Origin: an uncultured Bacteroidia bacterium | Lineage (GTDB): Bacteria; Bacteroidota; Bacteroidia; J057; CALLMJ01 | NCBI GenBank assembly: GCA_938006875.1 | Contig: CALLMJ010000050.1 | Span: forward strand, 1-40,920 | Direction: 5' to 3' | Length of the DNA: 40,920 nucleotides | Part shown: in pieces, positions 32,070-40,920 of the stretch | How positions within the stretch are numbered: the stretch's first letter is position 1 | Layout of the letters: each line of letters opens with the position of its first letter | The notes under the pieces: model-generated | What the model was told of the DNA's origin: nothing | Databases searched by the model: none | What the model saw: only the letters and a program-made list of their open reading frames with translations | Made by a program: the position numbers and the translations under genes

Positions 32070-33824
32070 ATGTCCGTCATAAAAAGATTACCTGATGCTC
32101 TTATCAATCAAATTGCTGCTGGTGAAGTTGTTCAAAGACCAGCCTCCGTATTAAAAGAATTACTAGAAAATTCTATTGATGCAGGTTCTACCCAAATTCA
32201 AGTTCATATCAAAGATGCAGGAAAAACCTTAATTCAAGTAAAAGACAATGGAAAAGGTATGAACCCAATAGATGCAAAACTTTGCTTTGAGAGGCACGCA
32301 ACCTCTAAAATTTCCAACGTTGAAGATTTATTTCAAATTAAAACCATGGGTTTTAGAGGCGAAGCTTTAGCAAGTATTAGCTCTGTCGCTAAAGTAACTT
32401 TAATTACTCAACCTGAAAACCAAGATATAGGTACTCAAATAGAAGTTGAAGGCGGTAAATTTATACTCAATCAACCAGCTTTTTTGGGAAAAGGTACTCT
32501 TATTCAAGTAAAAAATTTATTTTATAATATTCCAGCGAGAAGAAAATTTTTAAAAACCAATCCCGTTGAATATAAACATTTATTAAATGAGTTTATTCAT
32601 ATTGCTCTCTCCCACCCTGATAAATCCTTGCAATTTTATTCAAATGATAATTTACAATTAGATTTAAAGCCTAATTCCTTAAAAAACAGAATTTTAGATA
32701 TTTTCAGCCAATGGAATGAAGAGCATTTGCTTTTAGTAGATGAAGAAACTCCCAATCTCGGAATTAAAGGTTATGTAGGTTCTCCAGAAACCGCTACATC
32801 TTCAAGAGGTGAACAATATATTTTTGTTAATCAAAGATTTATAAGGTCTAACTTCTTAAATCATGCCATTTTTAAGTGCTACGAAAATATTATTCCCAAA
32901 GGCGAATTTCCCTTTTTTGTCATTTTTATTCAAATTCACCCTTCAGAAGTTGATATTAATATTCACCCAACGAAAACAGAAATCAAATTTGAAAATGAAA
33001 ATTTTGTTTATTCCATTTTACATGCGGCTGTACGAAAAGCCATTGCAAAATTTCATGTTGAAGATATAGAATATGATGCTTTCCAAAACATTGTTAATCA
33101 ACAAAAAGTACATTTAGAAGGTGAAACAACCATCAAGCAATTCAAGCAACAAAAACAACCATCATCTAATGAAATTGATATTCAAAAAAGTTTAAATATA
33201 CTCTATCAACCTATCAATTCAAAAAATGAAGAAACCCAAAAACTCCTTTTTTCTACTGATAATTTAAACTTAAATTGGACTGCATTCCAAGTATATAACC
33301 AATTTATTATCACCAATTTTCAAAATAAATTATGGATTTTTCCTCAACAAAATGCACATTTTAGAATTTTATTTGAGAAATATTTACCCAAAATTCAACA
33401 AGGTTTGCATACTCAACAAATGTTGTACCCCGAAAGAATCCATTTATCTAACCCTGATTTATTAGTTTTTCAAGAAAATTCAAAAACATTTCAACAATTA
33501 GGTTTTGATTTTCAGTTAGATAATAACGGTATTTTAATGAAAGGTTTACCCGTAGAATTAAAAATCACCAATCTTCATAATTTTATCAATCAAATTTTAA
33601 ACAGTTTAAAATATTTGGATAATTACGTGAATAATTTTCATGAAGAGTTAGTAAAAACCATTATCAAACCCATTTCCATTTCCAAAGAACAGCCACTCAT
33701 AGAAAAAGAAATCAGAAATTTAGTTGAAGATTTATTTCAATCGGAAAATAAATTTTATGATCCTTATGGAAATCCCATTTTGTATGAGCTTAAGAATGAA
33801 GAAATCCTAAAATGGTTTCAATAA
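32070..33824 (+). CDS. mutL: DNA mismatch repair protein MutL, nuclease motif degenerate
   Basis: Mismatch-repair ATPase that links MutS to downstream factors. The GHKL ATPase is complete: 'IAAGEVVQRPASVLKELLEN', 'DNGKGM', 'RHATSKI' and 'TMGFRGEALASISSVA'. The C-terminal dimerisation domain (about 400-584) is present, but its endonuclease motif DQHAxxE is replaced by 'PQQNAHF' in 'WIFPQQNAHFRILFEKYL'. The C-terminal CPHGRP element is 'YDPYGNP' with no Cys. MutL here should therefore lack the latent nuclease. It has 584 residues, a normal length. It starts 6 bases after a secreted-protein gene, an unusual partner. Convergent with rnr. Confidence 0.94.
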   Translation: MSVIKRLPDALINQIAAGEVVQRPASVLKELLENSIDAGSTQIQVHIKDAGKTLIQVKDNGKGMNPIDAKLCFERHATSKISNVEDLFQIKTMGFRGEALASISSVAKVTLITQPENQDIGTQIEVEGGKFILNQPAFLGKGTLIQVKNLFYNIPARRKFLKTNPVEYKHLLNEFIHIALSHPDKSLQFYSNDNLQLDLKPNSLKNRILDIFSQWNEEHLLLVDEETPNLGIKGYVGSPETATSSRGEQYIFVNQRFIRSNFLNHAIFKCYENIIPKGEFPFFVIFIQIHPSEVDINIHPTKTEIKFENENFVYSILHAAVRKAIAKFHVEDIEYDAFQNIVNQQKVHLEGETTIKQFKQQKQPSSNEIDIQKSLNILYQPINSKNEETQKLLFSTDNLNLNWTAFQVYNQFIITNFQNKLWIFPQQNAHFRILFEKYLPKIQQGLHTQQMLYPERIHLSNPDLLVFQENSKTFQQLGFDFQLDNNGILMKGLPVELKITNLHNFINQILNSLKYLDNYVNNFHEELVKTIIKPISISKEQPLIEKEIRNLVEDLFQSENKFYDPYGNPILYELKNEEILKWFQ

Positions 33825-33841
33825 TATGCCACCCACTGTTA

Positions 33842-33891
33842 TGGTCGGGCTTGCTTAGGGCCTCGTTGTATGCTGCGGCATTTCGGCAAGC
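33842..33891. repeat. GC-rich intergenic repeat fragment between mutL and rnr
   Basis: In the 160-base gap between convergent mutL and rnr lies a GC-rich patch. It contains TGGTCGGGCT at 33842-33851, the inverse of AGCCCGACCA in the element at 26851, and an inverted pair GCTTGC (33849-33854) / GCAAGC (33886-33891). An AT-rich stem at about 33916-33940 (ACTTTTT / AAAAAGT) may act as a convergent terminator. No gene fits in this gap. Confidence 0.5.
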
Positions 33892-33984
33892 TTAATATAT
33901 CATAATCCTTCTTCCACTTTTTTCAAAAGTTTCAAAAAGTAGAGTAGCTAAGCTCCCTCCGCTTCCCTCACAATTAATTATTTA

Positions 33985-36168
33985 CTACTTTTTACTTCCT
34001 TTTGTTTTCTTTCTAGAACTTCTTTTAGAATTTTTATTCCCTTTAAAAAACTCAAAGTTTTCAACTTTTTCATAATTTCCATACTTTTCAGAAGAAACTA
34101 ATTCTAAGTCTATGGTTCTATGTTGAATATCTGTTTTGAGAATTTTTACTTTTACTTTGTCCCCTAATTGAAACCTTTTTTGAGTTTTACGTCCTAAAAT
34201 ACAGAAGTTTTTTTCATCATAAAAATAATTATCATCTTTAAGATTTCTGATAGAAACAAGCCCTTCGGCCCTAATATCTAACATTTGAACATAAAAACCC
34301 CAGCCAGTAACACCGGAGATGGTTCCCTCTACAATTTGACCCACATAGTCTGAGGAATACTCTACCAATTTGTATTTAATTGAAGCTCTTTCAGCATCAG
34401 AAGCTTTTTTTTCTTGCAAAGAACAGTGTTTACACATTTTTTTAAGTTGTTCTTCTTCATACAAGATTTTTTTGGGGTTCTCTAAGAACTGTTGTAATAT
34501 TCTGTGAACCATCAAATCGGGGTACCTTCTAATAGGAGAAGTAAAATGGGTATAATGATCAAAAGCTAAAGCATAATGACCAATATTTTCGGGTTGGTAA
34601 ACAGCTTTTGCCATACTTCTGATTGCAATATTAGCAACCAAATCTCCTAGTGGAGTTCCTTCAATTTTTTGATTAATTTGACCCAGAGTTTTTCTGAATG
34701 CTTTTTCGTTACTCAAATCGAGATGATAACCCAAAGTTTCCAAAAAGTTTTTTAAGTCTAACAATTTGTCTTGTTGAGGCTGGTCGTGAGCACGAAAAAC
34801 CATAGGAATTTTTTTGGATTTCGCAATCAATCTACAAACTCTTTGATTAGCCAAAAGCATAAAATCCTCAATGAGTTTATGGGCATCTTTACGAACTTTT
34901 GGCATAATTTTAATAGGTTTATTGTTTTCGTCTAATTTAAAACGTATTTCTTCGGACTCAAAGTTGATACTTCCATTTTTAAAACGTTTATTTCTTAAAG
35001 CATAAGCCAAAATATTTAAAGTTTTTAAAAATTCTGACCATTCACCATCTGAATTTTCTAATATTGCTTGAGCTTCTTCGTAAGTAAACCTTTTCATAGA
35101 GTGAATGATAGTTCTACCAAACCATTCGTTTATAATTTTTCCATTTTTATCTAATTCAAAAACTGCTGAAAAGGCTAATTTGTCTTCGTTAGGTCTTAAA
35201 CTACATAAAAAATTAGAAATTTTTTCGGGTAACATGGGAATAGTTCTATCCACTAGATAAACTGAAGTTGCTTTTTGATAAGCTTCTTGGTCTAATATGG
35301 AACCCATTTTAACATAGTAGGAAACATCAGCAATATGAACTCCTACTTCATAATTTCCATTTTCTAAAATTTGTAAACTCAATGCGTCATCAAAATCTTT
35401 AGCATCTTCTGGGTCAATAGTTATAGTAGGAATGATACGAAAATCTTTTCTTTTTTGATATTCTTCAGCGGGAATTTTTTCTGGTAATTCCTCAGCTTCT
35501 TTGATGGCTTCATCAGAAAAACCCTCTAATAAACCAAATTCATAGATAATGGAATGAATTTCCGTTTGGTGATTTCCAGGGTCCCCAAGAATTTTTATAA
35601 TTTCTAATTCTGGATTACCATTTTGATTCACCACTAATTTTGCGTAAGCTTTTTTTCCTATTTCTTCTCTTTTAACTTTTGAAGTGATATCATATTCCCA
35701 AGGAATTTTTTTATCATCTGGGACAAAAAATATTCTGTTTGTATCTTTGATAATTTTTCCAACAAAACTACGTTTTTCTCCTTCTAACCATTCCACTAAT
35801 TCTCCATAGGAATATCTTAATTTTTGTTCTAAAATTTTAATAATCACCTTATCTCCTACCATTAAAAAATATTTGTTGGATATTGGAACATAAACTCGTT
35901 CAGCAAGTACATTTACCCATGTTTCATAATGTTCTAATTGAATATCTTCAACAGTTGCTTCAAAAGTTTTTCCTACAATATTTAAACTAAATTTTGAGGT
36001 TGTTTGTTGAATTAATTCTCCTTCATTTGCTAACTCTTTAAGAGCTTGGAATATTTGTTCTAAATGAATTTGATTTTTTAACTGGGTTTTGCTATATATT
36101 TGTTTTGCATTGAAGGATTCACCAGGATATTCATAAAAAAATTTGAGTAATTCAGTTTTTAAATTCAT
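33985..36168 (-). CDS. rnr: Ribonuclease R
   Basis: Processive 3'-5' exoribonuclease that degrades structured RNA. It has 727 residues. Cold-shock/OB-like domains (about 1-230) precede the RNB catalytic domain, whose metal-binding Asp cluster is in 'IDPEDAKDFDDALSL' (about 258). Further RNB landmarks are 'HIADVSYYVKMGSILDQEAY', 'PEKISNFLCSLRPNEDKLAF' and 'HYTHFTSPIRRYPDLMVHR'. An S1 domain (about 615-700) and a Lys/Arg-rich tail ('KGNKNSKRSSRKKTKGSKK') follow. The tail is typical of RNase R. It lies 33 bases downstream of the NeuD-like gene, with its own consensus -7 box in the gap. Confidence 0.95.
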   Translation of the reverse strand: MNLKTELLKFFYEYPGESFNAKQIYSKTQLKNQIHLEQIFQALKELANEGELIQQTTSKFSLNIVGKTFEATVEDIQLEHYETWVNVLAERVYVPISNKYFLMVGDKVIIKILEQKLRYSYGELVEWLEGEKRSFVGKIIKDTNRIFFVPDDKKIPWEYDITSKVKREEIGKKAYAKLVVNQNGNPELEIIKILGDPGNHQTEIHSIIYEFGLLEGFSDEAIKEAEELPEKIPAEEYQKRKDFRIIPTITIDPEDAKDFDDALSLQILENGNYEVGVHIADVSYYVKMGSILDQEAYQKATSVYLVDRTIPMLPEKISNFLCSLRPNEDKLAFSAVFELDKNGKIINEWFGRTIIHSMKRFTYEEAQAILENSDGEWSEFLKTLNILAYALRNKRFKNGSINFESEEIRFKLDENNKPIKIMPKVRKDAHKLIEDFMLLANQRVCRLIAKSKKIPMVFRAHDQPQQDKLLDLKNFLETLGYHLDLSNEKAFRKTLGQINQKIEGTPLGDLVANIAIRSMAKAVYQPENIGHYALAFDHYTHFTSPIRRYPDLMVHRILQQFLENPKKILYEEEQLKKMCKHCSLQEKKASDAERASIKYKLVEYSSDYVGQIVEGTISGVTGWGFYVQMLDIRAEGLVSIRNLKDDNYFYDEKNFCILGRKTQKRFQLGDKVKVKILKTDIQHRTIDLELVSSEKYGNYEKVENFEFFKGNKNSKRSSRKKTKGSKK

Positions 36169-36180
36169 AATTTATTTTTA

Positions 36181-36188
36181 CAAAGGTA
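36181..36188 (-). promoter_or_regulatory. -7 box of rnr
   Basis: The minus strand reads TACCTTTG, exact match to TAnnTTTG, 12 bases before the rnr ATG. It fills the short gap to the upstream gene, so rnr can be transcribed independently of that cluster. Confidence 0.6.
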
Positions 36189-36201
36189 TTAATTTTTTTT
36201 A

Positions 36202-36828
36202 TCAATTAATTTTTTCAATAATTTTTAAAGGATTTCCTGCATAAATTCCTGGTTCTTGAATATCTTTGAGAACCACACTACCCATTCCAATAATGACATT
36301 ATCAGTAATTTTAACTTGATTTTTTATTATTGTACCACTACCAATAAAAACATGATTCCCGATTTGTACTTCACCATTTAATATTACTCCTGTTGATATA
36401 TGGACATTGTTACCTATTACACAATCGTGTTCAATAGTTGCACGGGTATTAATAATGCAAAAATTACCAATTGTAACATGGGAGTTTACAAAAGCATAAG
36501 GATGAACGGTATTCCCTATACCTATTTTTAGGTTCTGACTAATTAAAGAATAAGGAGATATTAAATTAATAAAAAAAGGATAATAATTTTCCAGAGATTG
36601 TATTAGACTAAACCTTGATTTTAAATTTGTTATACCCCCAATACCTAGAACAAAATAGCAATTAGAAAATTTGTTTATATCCTGAATTTTTCCCAAAACA
36701 TTAGGTTTAGATAAATCATCATCTAAATAACCTAAAATATTGTAATTAAATGATTTAGCAATTTCAGTTATGGATTTTGAATGACCTCCGCAACCTATAA
36801 TAATTAAATGAAGAGAATTAGAAATCAT
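36202..36828 (-). CDS. NeuD/PglD-like sugar O-acyltransferase
   Basis: A 208-residue acetyltransferase. The N-terminal sugar-binding half starts 'LHLIIIGCGGHSKSITEIA' and contains 'GYLDDD'. The C-terminal half is a left-handed beta-helix of hexapeptide repeats ('IGNFCIINTRATIEHDCVIG', 'IGNHVFIGSGTIIKN', 'DNVIIGMGSVV'). It ends with the characteristic 'GIYAGNPLKII'. The family acetylates nucleotide-linked or glycan sugars. The likely catalytic His lies in 'EHDCVIG'. Its start codon lies inside the end of the ECF sigma gene (11-base overlap), so translation is probably coupled. The other biosynthesis genes normally found with NeuD or PglD are absent. Confidence 0.87.
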   Translation of the reverse strand: MISNSLHLIIIGCGGHSKSITEIAKSFNYNILGYLDDDLSKPNVLGKIQDINKFSNCYFVLGIGGITNLKSRFSLIQSLENYYPFFINLISPYSLISQNLKIGIGNTVHPYAFVNSHVTIGNFCIINTRATIEHDCVIGNNVHISTGVILNGEVQIGNHVFIGSGTIIKNQVKITDNVIIGMGSVVLKDIQEPGIYAGNPLKIIEKIN

Positions 36829-37429
36829 CCATTTTGATAATTAATTCTTGAAGAATCATTTTGGCTCTTTTTAATTGAGCTTTTACAGTTCCTAGAGGTA
36901 AATTTGTAGAAACTGCAATTTCATCATAGCTAAGTTCTTCGTAATATCTTAATTCAATTAGAACTCTATATTTTTCAGGTAATGAACTTACAATTTTATT
37001 GATGATTTCTTTTCTTTCTTTTTTTTCAAGACCATTATCGGGCGTTAAAAATTTAGTGTCATTGATTTGAATTTCGTTTCCTTCATCATCATGAGTGCTT
37101 GATGCAAGTGAAAACGTTTCTATTTTCTTTTTTCTATAGATATCCACGCAAGTATTTGAAGCGATTTTGTAAAGCCACGTTGAAAAAGCAAATTTTGCTT
37201 CGTATTTATCAAGAGAAGCAAAAGCTTTCATGAAACATTCTTGAGTGGCATCTTCTGCATCATTTTCATTTTGAAGTAACTTTAAAGCAATATAATATAC
37301 ATTTCTTTTATATCGATTCATTAATTTTTCATAGGATTTTGTATTCCCATTCAAAGCATTTTGAACCAAAAATAAATCTTCCTTAGCTCTTGGAGACAAG
37401 TTTTCCAATATATTACTATCTATTTCCAT
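36818..37429 (-). CDS. ECF-type RNA polymerase sigma factor
   Basis: A 203-residue sigma-70 family protein of ECF layout. Region 2 is 'YKRNVYYIALKLLQNENDAE' with 'DATQECFMKAF' and 'FSTWLYKIASNTCVDIYRKK'. Region 4 is 'LPEKYRVLIELRYYEELSYD' with 'EIAVSTNLPLGTVKAQLKRAK', the DNA-binding helix-turn-helix. Regions 1.1 and 3 are absent. No anti-sigma gene is adjacent, which is unusual for regulated ECF sigmas. It overlaps the glycosyltransferase gene upstream by 10 bases and the acetyltransferase gene downstream by 11. Its target promoters are unknown. Confidence 0.93.
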   Translation of the reverse strand: MEIDSNILENLSPRAKEDLFLVQNALNGNTKSYEKLMNRYKRNVYYIALKLLQNENDAEDATQECFMKAFASLDKYEAKFAFSTWLYKIASNTCVDIYRKKKIETFSLASSTHDDEGNEIQINDTKFLTPDNGLEKKERKEIINKIVSSLPEKYRVLIELRYYEELSYDEIAVSTNLPLGTVKAQLKRAKMILQELIIKMDDF

Positions 37430-38508
37430 TGTTTTGATTTACTAAAAGAAAAAGGTAAAACTATGATTTGAAACATAAGAAAGATATATTCGCCAAAAAA
37501 GTTAAAAATCATAGGGATCCGAAAGCCAGTTTTGTGTGTAAATATTTGCATAGATGTAAATTTAACAAAGTTCATTAAACACAAAGATAATAACAAAATT
37601 TTATTTTCCAAAATATTTATTGTATTAAATATCCAAAATAAACTGATGAACTGCATAAAATTCAGTGTAAATAATAAAAATTTAGTGGTTAATTTGTAAT
37701 ATTTACTTGCTGAATAATGTCTTTTTTTTTGTTTTAAATAATCTATAAATTGAGTTTTGGGATTAGAAATCGTTTGAGAAGCTGGACTAAACAATACATC
37801 AAATTTATATTTTTTTTCTAAATTTTGTATAAATAAATCATCGTCTCCACTTAATACATTTTTATGTTTTTCATATCCTTTTTCTTGAAAAAAAATAACT
37901 TTTTTGAAACCCCAATTTCTACCGACGCACATATAAGGCGATTGTAATAATGCAGTAAAACTATATAAATAAGCCGTAAAAAAAGTTTCCCATTCAATTA
38001 AACAATTAAACCACATTTTTTTACTTGCATAAGGACTTAAACCCAAAACTATTTGGTTTCCATTTTGAAATGAAGTATTGTAATATTTTAACCATTGATT
38101 AGAAAGTGGTTTACAATCTGCATCTGTTAATACAATATATTCATAATCAGCATTTAATATACCTTTAGTTAAAGCAAATTTTTTAGGTGACCATTCTATT
38201 GGAGTAGATTCTAAGTTAATTACTTTAAGTTTATGGTTTTTAATATTTTGTAAAAATTTATAGCTTTCATCATTGGTATTATTAATAACAATAATCACTT
38301 GATAATTTGTATAATCCAAATCCAGCCAGTAATCAAGATGATTTTTTAAATTTACATATTCATTTTTAGCTGCAATTACAATAGAAATACCGAGTTCAAG
38401 ATTTTCTGTATTAATTTCAATTGGTTTTTTTTTAAAGATTATTACTGCAAGGGATATTAACCAAAAAATTGTTAATGAAACAAAAGAAATAAAAAGTAGA
38501 AAAGTCAA
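37420..38508 (-). CDS. Membrane glycosyltransferase, family 2
   Basis: A 362-residue GT-A glycosyltransferase. One N-terminal membrane span (about 3-24) precedes the catalytic domain: 'LGISIVIAAKNEYVNLKNHL', the DxD-type 'VLTDADCKP', 'GDDDLFIQNL' and the 'KQKKRHYSASKYY' motif that corresponds to the Q/RxxRW region, here without Trp. Two or three C-terminal spans (about 275-355) anchor it in the inner membrane. It resembles GT2 enzymes that build surface polysaccharides or glycolipids, but acceptor and donor are unknown. It starts 6 bases after the SiaC-like gene and overlaps the sigma gene by 10 bases. Confidence 0.88.
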   Translation of the reverse strand: MTFLLFISFVSLTIFWLISLAVIIFKKKPIEINTENLELGISIVIAAKNEYVNLKNHLDYWLDLDYTNYQVIIVINNTNDESYKFLQNIKNHKLKVINLESTPIEWSPKKFALTKGILNADYEYIVLTDADCKPLSNQWLKYYNTSFQNGNQIVLGLSPYASKKMWFNCLIEWETFFTAYLYSFTALLQSPYMCVGRNWGFKKVIFFQEKGYEKHKNVLSGDDDLFIQNLEKKYKFDVLFSPASQTISNPKTQFIDYLKQKKRHYSASKYYKLTTKFLLFTLNFMQFISLFWIFNTINILENKILLLSLCLMNFVKFTSMQIFTHKTGFRIPMIFNFFGEYIFLMFQIIVLPFSFSKSKQWK

Positions 38509-38514
38509 ATTTAA

Positions 38515-38886
38515 TCAATTGGAATAAATTTTTATTGGTATATTCACTAATTCGGAGATATCTTCCCCTACTTCAATCATATCATCATCTAACTCATCAT
38601 GATACCAGTTTACTAAAATTTTTTTTCCATTTTCATAATACAAATCTAATTCTTCAAATAAACGTATGACTAATTTTGTTGCACTAGAATTAATATAAGT
38701 TAACATGAAGTTAAGCGTAATTTCAGAGTTTGATTTGATATAATCAATAATCATTTCATGAATAGGGTTAAAAAATTCAGTAGCGTTAGCAGGGTAAAGT
38801 TTTCCAGTAAAATTAATAACACCTTTACTTTTATCAAACAAAACCTCTGGTGAAAACTTAGTACTTTCTATTAAGACTGCGTTCAT
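38515..38886 (-). CDS. SiaC-family (DUF1987) regulatory phosphoprotein
   Basis: A 123-residue protein of the SiaC family. In Pseudomonas, SiaC is a partner-switch phosphoprotein toggled by the SiaA phosphatase and SiaB kinase, and its unphosphorylated form stimulates a diguanylate cyclase. Family features seen here are 'TKFSPEVLFDK', 'GVINFTGKLYPANATEFFNP', the phosphosite region 'LTYINSSATKLVIRLFEEL' (Ser/Thr cluster) and 'WYHDELDDDMIEVGEDISEL'. SiaA and SiaB homologues are not next to it. It is the first gene of the cluster with GT2, ECF sigma and acetyltransferase. A TAAATTCG box at 38909-38916 could be its -7 element. Confidence 0.85.
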   Translation of the reverse strand: MNAVLIESTKFSPEVLFDKSKGVINFTGKLYPANATEFFNPIHEMIIDYIKSNSEITLNFMLTYINSSATKLVIRLFEELDLYYENGKKILVNWYHDELDDDMIEVGEDISELVNIPIKIYSN

Positions 38887-38908
38887 TTTGATTATACAAA
38901 AATTTATG

Positions 38909-38916
38909 CGAATTTA
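38909..38916 (-). promoter_or_regulatory. Likely -7 box of the SiaC-like cluster
   Basis: The minus strand reads TAAATTCG followed by CATAA, one base off the consensus, 22 bases before the ATG at 38886. Confidence 0.4.
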
Positions 38917-39060
38917 CTAATAAAAGCTATTCAATAACTAATTGAGATAGGCATTAAATTTTATTTTTCTGATAAACAATAACTTAAAAATTTTCTTAAT
39001 TTTTTTACCCAAAAAAATTTTTTCTTTGTAAAAAATGTTGAAACAAAAAATTTATGTTTT

Positions 39061-39567
39061 ATGGAAGATATCCTTGTAAACAAAGTTGCAAATAGTGCTA
39101 TACTGACCTTCAATCTTGAAGATTTTTATCCCAAACAACCGATTCAAGAATTAGATATTAAACATTTTCTTTTTATGGGATTAATCCTAAAAGAAAAAGA
39201 TTTTAGAGAAATGGTGAAAAATTATGATTGGAAACAATATGAAAATCAAATTGTTTGTATTTACTGTTCTGAAGATGCTATCATTCCAACTTGGGCTTAT
39301 ATGATTATTGCTACTTCATTAAATGAAGTTCATGCAGAAGCATTTTTGGGAAAAAAAGAGAATTTTCTTGATGCTTATTACTATAAAATTCTTCATGAAT
39401 TAAGTTATGATAATTTTCAAGATAAGAATGTAGTAATCAAAGGTTGTGGTGAAAAAAATATACCCAATTCTGCTTATGTATTGGCAAGCCAAAAGTTATC
39501 CAATTATGTTAAAAAATTATTTTATGGAGAGCCCTGCTCAACTGTACCGATTTGGAGAAAGAAATAA
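39061..39567 (+). CDS. DUF2480 family protein
   Basis: A 168-residue cytoplasmic protein of the DUF2480 family, found mainly in Bacteroidota. Recognisable segments are 'LDIKHFLFMGLILKEKDFRE', 'YCSEDAIIPTWAYMIIATSL', 'VVIKGCGEKNIPNSAYVLAS' and the C-terminal 'GEPCSTVPIWRKK'. The function is unknown. Two conserved Cys (in 'KGCG' and 'PCST') may be metal or redox sites; that is inference. No signal peptide or membrane span is visible. It is divergent from the SiaC-like cluster and lies 91 bases before the SPFH gene on the same strand. Confidence 0.88.
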   Translation: MEDILVNKVANSAILTFNLEDFYPKQPIQELDIKHFLFMGLILKEKDFREMVKNYDWKQYENQIVCIYCSEDAIIPTWAYMIIATSLNEVHAEAFLGKKENFLDAYYYKILHELSYDNFQDKNVVIKGCGEKNIPNSAYVLASQKLSNYVKKLFYGEPCSTVPIWRKK

Positions 39568-39611
39568 TTCATAAAATTTGTTAAATATTTTTTTGAGCGA
39601 AACCTTTTCGG

Positions 39612-39619
39612 TAATTTTA
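39612..39619 (+). promoter_or_regulatory. -7 box of the SPFH gene
   Basis: TAATTTTA followed by CG, one base off TAnnTTTG. TTTTG at 39591-39595 lies 16 bases upstream. The stretch before the box (GAAACCTTTTCGGTAATTTT) closely resembles the sequence before the typA box (GAAACTTTTCGTAATTTT). Confidence 0.45.
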
Positions 39620-39658
39620 CGTAAAATATTTCAAAAACAATTTTAACCACAATATAAA

Positions 39659-40783
39659 ATGGGAATTTTTAAATTTTTTTCAAACCAGTTCATTGAAATT
39701 ATTGAATGGTTAGACGATTCTAATGATACGATAATCTATAAATTTCCTGATGAAGATAGGGAAATTAAAATGGGAGCACAATTAGTGGTAAGAGAATCAC
39801 AAGTAGCACTTTTCTTAAATGAAGGAAAATTAGCAGATGTTTATGGACCTGGTCGTCATGAACTTTCTACTAGAAATATGCCTATTCTTTCTACTTTGAA
39901 AGGTTGGAAATATGGTTTTAATTCTCCTTTCAAATGTGATGTTTACTTTGTTTCTACTAAACAATTAGAAATTAAATGGGGTACTAAACAACCCATTTTA
40001 ATTAGAGACCCTGAATTTGATGCTGTAAGGATAAGAGCATTTGGTAATTTATATTTCAAAGTAGTTGATGCCCCTAAATTTTTTACAGAAGTTGCAGGTA
40101 CTGATTCCAAAGTAACTACCGATGAAATTATTGACAGATTTAGAGGTCTTATAATTACCAAATTTACTTCTTCTATTGGAAAAACTGGTAAATCTATCCT
40201 GGATTTGGCTTCCATGGGAGCAGATTTAGGAGCAGAGCTTTTACCATTTATTAACAAAGATTTAGAAGCTATTGGTCTTGAAATTAAGTCTTTCAATGTT
40301 GAAAGCATCAATTTACCAGAAGAACTTCAAGCAGAACTTGACGAAATGGTCAAAAATAACATGAAGTTAAGAACTAAACGTAAAGAAAAAATGCTTGAAA
40401 ATGAAATGGAACTTACTAACCTCGCTAATAAACTTAATCTTTCCCAAAACGTTGATGACATGAATAAGTTCCTTCAAATGCAAACAGGTTTAGGTATGAC
40501 CAAAGAAAATACGGGTGGTGGTGATAATAATGCAGGAAATATGATGAAAACCATGTTAGAAATGAATATGGGTATGAATATGGTTAATCAAATGATGAAT
40601 AACCAAAATCAGAACCAGAATAAAAATCAAACTCCTACAAATAATAATACCAACAATACTGATGCAGAAAGAGAAAAAATTATGGCTACTCTTAAACAAC
40701 TCGGTGAATTAAAAGAAATGGGTGTTCTTACTCAAGAAGAATTTGACGCAAAGAAAAAAGAACTTCTTTCTAAGTTAGTATAG
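39659..40783 (+). CDS. SPFH domain protein with C-terminal SHOCT
   Basis: A 374-residue protein of the SPFH/YdjI-like ('virion core protein') group. The SPFH fold covers about residues 35-270 ('GAQLVVRESQVALFLNEGKL', 'GPGRHELSTRNMPIL', 'RIRAFGNLYFKVVDAPKFF'). A Met/Asn/Gln-rich low-complexity linker follows (about 285-335). The end is a short SHOCT helix pair ('LGELKEMGVLTQEEFDAKKK'), often an oligomerisation motif. There is no signal peptide. In Bacillus, YdjI works with membrane-stress proteins such as PspA/YdjF; no such partner is in view. A terminator follows, so it is the last gene of its transcript. Confidence 0.87.
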   Translation: MGIFKFFSNQFIEIIEWLDDSNDTIIYKFPDEDREIKMGAQLVVRESQVALFLNEGKLADVYGPGRHELSTRNMPILSTLKGWKYGFNSPFKCDVYFVSTKQLEIKWGTKQPILIRDPEFDAVRIRAFGNLYFKVVDAPKFFTEVAGTDSKVTTDEIIDRFRGLIITKFTSSIGKTGKSILDLASMGADLGAELLPFINKDLEAIGLEIKSFNVESINLPEELQAELDEMVKNNMKLRTKRKEKMLENEMELTNLANKLNLSQNVDDMNKFLQMQTGLGMTKENTGGGDNNAGNMMKTMLEMNMGMNMVNQMMNNQNQNQNKNQTPTNNNTNNTDAEREKIMATLKQLGELKEMGVLTQEEFDAKKKELLSKLV

Positions 40784-40810
40784 TTTATTTTATGTTCATA
40801 TGTTAAAGTT

Positions 40811-40833
40811 AAGCTGCTCTTTATGGGCAGCTT
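40811..40833 (+). terminator. Intrinsic terminator after the SPFH gene
   Basis: A 9-bp stem (AAGCTGCTC / GGGCAGCTT, with one T-G wobble) and a 5-base loop, 27 bases past the SPFH stop and followed by a run of T residues. Confidence 0.85.
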
Positions 40834-40905
40834 TTTTATTAAAATTAAAATTTATTTGGTATTTCATTAAAAGTTTATTTATTTAGCGGTAGAGTTAATG
40901 TAGAT

Positions 40906-40920
40906 ATGAAAAAGATATTA
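40906..40920 (+). CDS. Possible start of a further gene, cut by the window edge
   Basis: ATG at 40906 opens 'MKKIL' and runs off the edge. The basic-then-hydrophobic start is what a signal peptide would give, but five codons are not enough to say more. Confidence 0.25.

Follow-up and report, generated by a model that had tools for sequence, protein, structure and literature searches.

An overlapping glycosyltransferase–sigma factor gene pair kept across the class Bacteroidia, and a four-gene set apparently confined to one uncultured genus

Do the tightly packed genes for a SiaC-family phosphoprotein, a membrane GT2 glycosyltransferase (GT), an ECF sigma factor, and a NeuD-like acetyltransferase form a single regulatory switch in an uncultured Bacteroidia bacterium? 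The initial annotation of this locus suggested such a switch, one that tunes a surface glycan, perhaps with the SiaC-like protein acting on the sigma factor. The locus belongs to a stretch of 40,920 nucleotides that was analyzed as a whole (hereafter, the window) and has the following features:

39061–39567, plus strand: divergent DUF2480 gene upstream of SiaC (PF10652, E=4.5e-68), a neighbor kept within the genus
38909–38934, minus strand: weak promoter candidate TTG-N15-TAAATTCG upstream of SiaC, picked by eye, one mismatch to TAnnTTTG
38515–38886, minus strand: orphan SiaC-family phosphoprotein, 123 aa (Pfam PF09345, E=7.6e-34)
37420–38508, minus strand: membrane GT2 glycosyltransferase, 362 aa, TTG start (Glycos_transf_2, 1.2e-12)
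37420–37429, minus strand: GT/sigma overlap ATGGAAATAG, 10 bases (GT ends in Trp-Lys-stop, sigma starts with Met-Glu-Ile)
36818–37429, minus strand: ECF-type sigma factor, 203 aa (Sigma70_r2, 4.5e-18; r4_2, 1.4e-15)
36202–36828, minus strand: NeuD/PglD/VioB-type sugar acetyltransferase, 208 aa (TIGR03570 NeuD_NnaD, 201 bits)
33985–36168, minus strand: RNase R (rnr), last gene of the same-strand run (TIGR02063, 689 bits)

Pfam and NCBIfam profiles bear out the family initially assigned to each of the four genes. The spacings are likewise as initially given: a 6-base gap between SiaC and GT, which presupposes that the TTG start of GT is correct, a GT–sigma overlap of 10 bases, and a sigma–NeuD overlap of 11. 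RNase R, the fifth gene of the run, follows NeuD after 33 bases. An Rfam scan of positions 33000–40920 returned zero matches. As for the acetyltransferase, it belongs to the NeuD/PglD/VioB group according to its TIGR03570 score (201.3 bits, cut-off 160.8), and its best solved relative is VioB (7txp, E=2.2e-30).

The identical gene order recurs in one other species of the genus, represented by an uncultured Bacteroidia MAG (contig CALLNY010000092.1), with a SiaC–GT gap of 8 bases, a GT–sigma overlap of 10, and a sigma–NeuD overlap of 11. RNase R is at the matching place there as well, the five-gene order being common to both genus members. Protein identity between the two species is highest for SiaC (90%), followed by RNase R (78%), sigma (76%), DUF2480 (72%), NeuD (67%), and GT (55%). 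Since the order and nearly identical spacing recur at 55–90% protein identity, the genes are real.

Wider synteny was assessed in 60 genomes, namely, the window's own and 59 relatives. GT adjoins a strong sigma match in 46 of the 60, and neither SiaC nor NeuD is found at the GT–sigma pair in any of the 58 relatives beyond the genus (0/58), both being there only in the two available genus genomes. Nor is SiaC, NeuD, or RNase R near the pair in any of 38 larger loci taken from genomes beyond the genus, and in 28 other genomes the sequence up to 1.5 kb from the best SiaC is free of sigma homologues. In relatives, SiaC and NeuD are located elsewhere in the genome or absent, with SiaC undetectable in 15 of the 46 genomes carrying the pair. 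Judging from these comparisons and on present data, the SiaC–GT–sigma–NeuD set is genus-specific, and the pattern indicates that SiaC and NeuD joined an older GT–sigma core within one uncultured genus. The suggested four-part switch thus has no comparative support, the set being confined to the genus and SiaC and NeuD standing apart in relatives. Judged by the refuting conditions that the initial annotation itself set, the order is present in both genus genomes and appears nowhere else among the relatives sampled. The proposal as a whole is partly supported: its GT/sigma link holds, with adjacency extending over the class. An association between SiaC and the pair (Fisher p=0.0006) was set aside because phylogeny confounds it: SiaC is missing altogether from one family.

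The extent of this adjacency was measured in an evenly drawn sample of 149 class genomes, with GT found in 130, a strong sigma match in 103, and both in 99. The sigma gene is located directly 3' of GT on the same strand in 98 of these 99, and in the lone exception (G264) GT is near a contig end. GT is kept without a strong sigma match in 31 class genomes. In two genomes (G036 and G030) GT is immediately followed by rsmG, the sigma gene being missing from that place, consistent with sigma loss.

At 42 distinct loci the junction itself was inspected, with a sigma ATG called in 40 of them and none in 2. The overlap ranges from 4 to 52 bases in 39 of the 40, the nearest ATG in the remaining locus being just past the GT stop; 10 bases is the commonest length (18 loci), followed by 13 (7 loci), and the ATG behind the longer overlaps may not be the actual start. 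All 40 loci share a single relative phase (overlap length 3n+1), which is independent of the choice of ATG. Ten further class loci give a similar picture, with an overlap of 10 or 13 bases in eight, 1 base in one, and 10 bases (by ORFs) in the tenth. Such overlap is far beyond chance. The commonest junction, ATGGARNTAR, encodes Trp-Lys or Trp-Asn followed by the GT stop and, in the other frame, Met-Glu of sigma. GT orthologues without sigma also end in Trp or carry it close to the C-terminus, and this residue may either serve GT itself or be a relic. Read from its distribution, the GT2–sigma pair is an ancient unit of the whole class, older than the initial annotation supposed.

According to its Glycos_transf_2 match, catalytic DxD, and predicted structure, GT is a membrane GT2 enzyme. 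An alignment of orthologues reveals invariant DxD (129–131), GDDD (221–224), and QKxRH (260–264) motifs, and the structure, predicted with pLDDT 88, has four long helices, one of them N-terminal and the other three C-terminal. The best fold matches of the model are hyaluronan synthase, PcManGT, GtrB, and BcsA, with modest TM-scores of at most 0.67. On another contig of the window's genome (C7:20196–22860), a GT2 paralogue is located just downstream of a SpoIIE phosphatase in a 1059-aa open frame.

The sigma factor consists of regions 2 and 4 and little else, as typical ECF members do, and its best NCBIfam match is SigW-like, below the cut-off. No anti-sigma gene adjoins it in the window, as the initial annotation said, and none was recognized among the selected genes of class flanks inspected by eye; the recognized class neighbors of the pair are rsmG (confirmed), tgt, an LptG-like permease, and unrelated genes. 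Outside the class, GT is not next to sigma in any of the 17 loci searched, and in the nine whose flanks were read no anti-sigma was recognized beside the GT-less sigma, a ppx/gppA-like phosphatase and mutS being among the recognizable genes. Since GT occurs without strong sigma in 31 class genomes and sigma without GT outside the class, neither strictly depends on the other.

Upstream regions yielded little. A similar element picked by eye, TAATTTCGCATA, is found upstream of SiaC in the second species, almost at the position of the candidate listed above, and a scan for sigma-70-type promoters performed no better than shuffles. No promoter motif is shared upstream of the pair: with tgt masked, the best 4- and 5-base dyads reach 6 vs a shuffle maximum of 5 and 4 vs 3, respectively, and the excess 3-base dyads are A/T words judged against base-shuffled controls only. 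An apparently conserved element upstream of GT, GGCATAAA, was rejected, as on the opposite strand it is part of the divergent tgt gene and encodes a conserved Phe-Met-Pro stretch. A conserved GATTTTCATTTACGCTAAGCTTTGTA-like block precedes the GT-less sigma in one family outside the class (loci L172, L174, L177, L179, L181, L182, and L184) and is possibly its promoter.

As for SiaC, the window protein is a clear member of PF09345 (116.4 bits, cut-off 24.5), scores 76.6 bits against NF038265 (biofilm regulation phosphoprotein SiaC, NCBIfam), below the equivalog cut-off of 150, and aligns to Pseudomonas aeruginosa SiaC (6kko/6k4f) with E=5.7e-10. The latter is phosphorylated at Thr68 (PMC7647112), the place of which is taken by Ser67 in the NSSATK motif of the window protein. 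The motif begins with NSS in the window and the second species; of the remaining aligned rows, all except two have NTS. A serine here could still be phosphorylatable. In the SiaC tree the window copy groups (94/90) with SiaC of two genomes of the same taxonomic order, a tentative placement given the long branches. In one of these genomes SiaC adjoins genes for a GH3 hydrolase and a subtilase, and in the other it is near a superoxide dismutase gene, in neither case beside the GT–sigma pair of that genome. A search of open papers for SiaC in Bacteroidota returned none.

Of the four SiaC genes in the window's genome, three come immediately after a SiaB (DUF6272) gene; the window copy does not and is therefore an orphan. 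SiaB homologues, which the initial annotation proposed to locate, are thus three in number, all on other contigs and each directly before another SiaC. SpoIIE-type phosphatases give 20 matches above the Pfam cut-off plus one partial match below it. The presence of SiaB homologues and these phosphatases implies a SiaC phosphorylation network in the cell, with the window SiaC outside its SiaB–SiaC units. Set against four SiaC and three SiaB genes, the 20 matches leave most phosphatases without an obvious substrate. The SiaC family is expanded in two relatives (G023 and G044), with up to 14 matches per genome. Genome G004 has a SiaB (DUF6272)–SiaC fusion, a single 319-aa protein (L103:9102–10061), which hints at a joint function of the two domains in this taxonomic order.

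Pseudomonas SiaC modulates the diguanylate cyclase SiaD (PMC8457831). A search for GGDEF proteins gave no match, and hence no SiaD-type target, in either genus genome, the window's genome being 97% complete; eight control genomes were positive. The SiaC–SiaD mechanism, therefore, very probably cannot operate here.

The reading that we consider moderately probable is a translationally coupled cassette of an envelope GT2 enzyme and a lone sigma factor, controlled at the level of expression, with an operon that later recruited an orphan SiaC and NeuD. The sigma factor would most likely be translated by ribosomes finishing GT. Its activity would probably be set by the amount of GT–sigma message transcribed and translated, given that none of the lineages inspected showed an anti-sigma gene in its vicinity. 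The cassette would thereby link the output of an enzyme of envelope glycans or glycolipids to a matching transcription program. Within the genus, it would be part of a longer co-transcribed operon, SiaC–GT–sigma–NeuD–rnr. One of the SiaB kinases encoded elsewhere in the genome would probably act in trans on Ser67 of the orphan SiaC, with a SpoIIE-type phosphatase removing the phosphate; the partner of this SiaC is very probably not a diguanylate cyclase. Against the reading stand the occurrence of GT and sigma apart from each other, the lack of a promoter motif common to the regions upstream of the pair, and the modest TM-scores of GT; adjacency with overlap, moreover, can persist without functional coupling.

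Among the alternatives, the least unlikely is that SiaC, the GT–sigma cassette, NeuD, and rnr are packed by chance, the genome being small and dense, and have nothing but a transcript in common. This explanation is suited by the lack of any conserved association of SiaC or NeuD with the cassette in other genomes and by the housekeeping nature of rnr at the end of the run; the order and tight spacing, however, are kept despite GT identity of 55%, a weak counterargument as it comes from two genomes. Quite improbable, in our judgment, is that SiaC modulates the adjacent GT2 (or NeuD) by protein contact, by analogy with its action on SiaD. DUF1987 proteins have been suggested to modulate adjacent gene products (PMC8457831), the SiaC gene abuts GT at 6 to 8 bases, and no GGDEF protein offers an alternative target. 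However, throughout the class GT orthologues function with no SiaC next to them, and conservation of 90% for SiaC vs 55% for GT does not suggest close co-evolution.

Very improbable is a partner switch, an extension of the initial proposal, in which a SiaB-type kinase would serve as the anti-sigma of the lone ECF factor until the dephosphorylated operon SiaC displaced it, tuning a surface glycan. It draws on the presence of SiaC and a sigma without adjacent anti-sigma in one run in both species, and on the description of SiaB and SiaC as an anti-sigma-like kinase and its antagonist (PMC7647112), three SiaB genes being encoded in the genome. Against it, the arrangement is genus-confined, the 15 pair genomes mentioned above have no detectable SiaC, and SiaC–sigma adjacency is missing from the 28 others. 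To our knowledge, there is also no precedent for an ECF sigma controlled by a SiaB-type kinase. The fuller version, a classical partner switch in which the orphan SiaC would release the ECF sigma from a SiaB-type kinase and the overlapping GT2 would make the very glycan whose supply the sigma regulates, is given marginally less credence still.

The main interest of the locus shifts from the four-gene reading, which is corrected here, to the class-wide GT2–sigma overlap. A sigma factor tied by frame overlap to one GT and kept across many class families suggests an unexplored regulatory link between envelope glycans and transcription, and the pair is a concrete knock-out target in any cultivable class member. 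The open papers searched contained no described GT–ECF pair or this overlap, and no system with the four-gene set, in agreement with the initial annotation. As SiaC proteins occur and diversify where no diguanylate cyclase is found, they must have other partners.

In comparison with SiaABCD of P. aeruginosa, the sequence of the window SiaC places it in the same family, and the genome has SiaB homologues and SpoIIE-type phosphatases; the window operon, however, is without SiaA, SiaB, and SiaD, has Ser for Thr68, and comes from a genome with no GGDEF match. Another point of comparison is provided by the lone ECF sigma factors of Bacteroidota, such as SigP of Porphyromonas gingivalis, which is reported to be under the control of the two-component system PorXY (PMC4800418). 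The window sigma is also ECF-type, with no adjacent anti-sigma seen, and it differs in overlapping a GT2 gene. Regarding NeuD/PglD/VioB acetyltransferases, the window protein is above the NCBIfam cut-off with VioB as its closest solved structure, although no sugar aminotransferase or dehydratase genes accompany it in the run. Finally, the window GT differs from hyaluronan synthase, BcsA, and GtrB by identity of about 15% and by QKxRH instead of QxxRW, but resembles them in its predicted GT-A fold, DxD, QxxR-type motif, and membrane helices.
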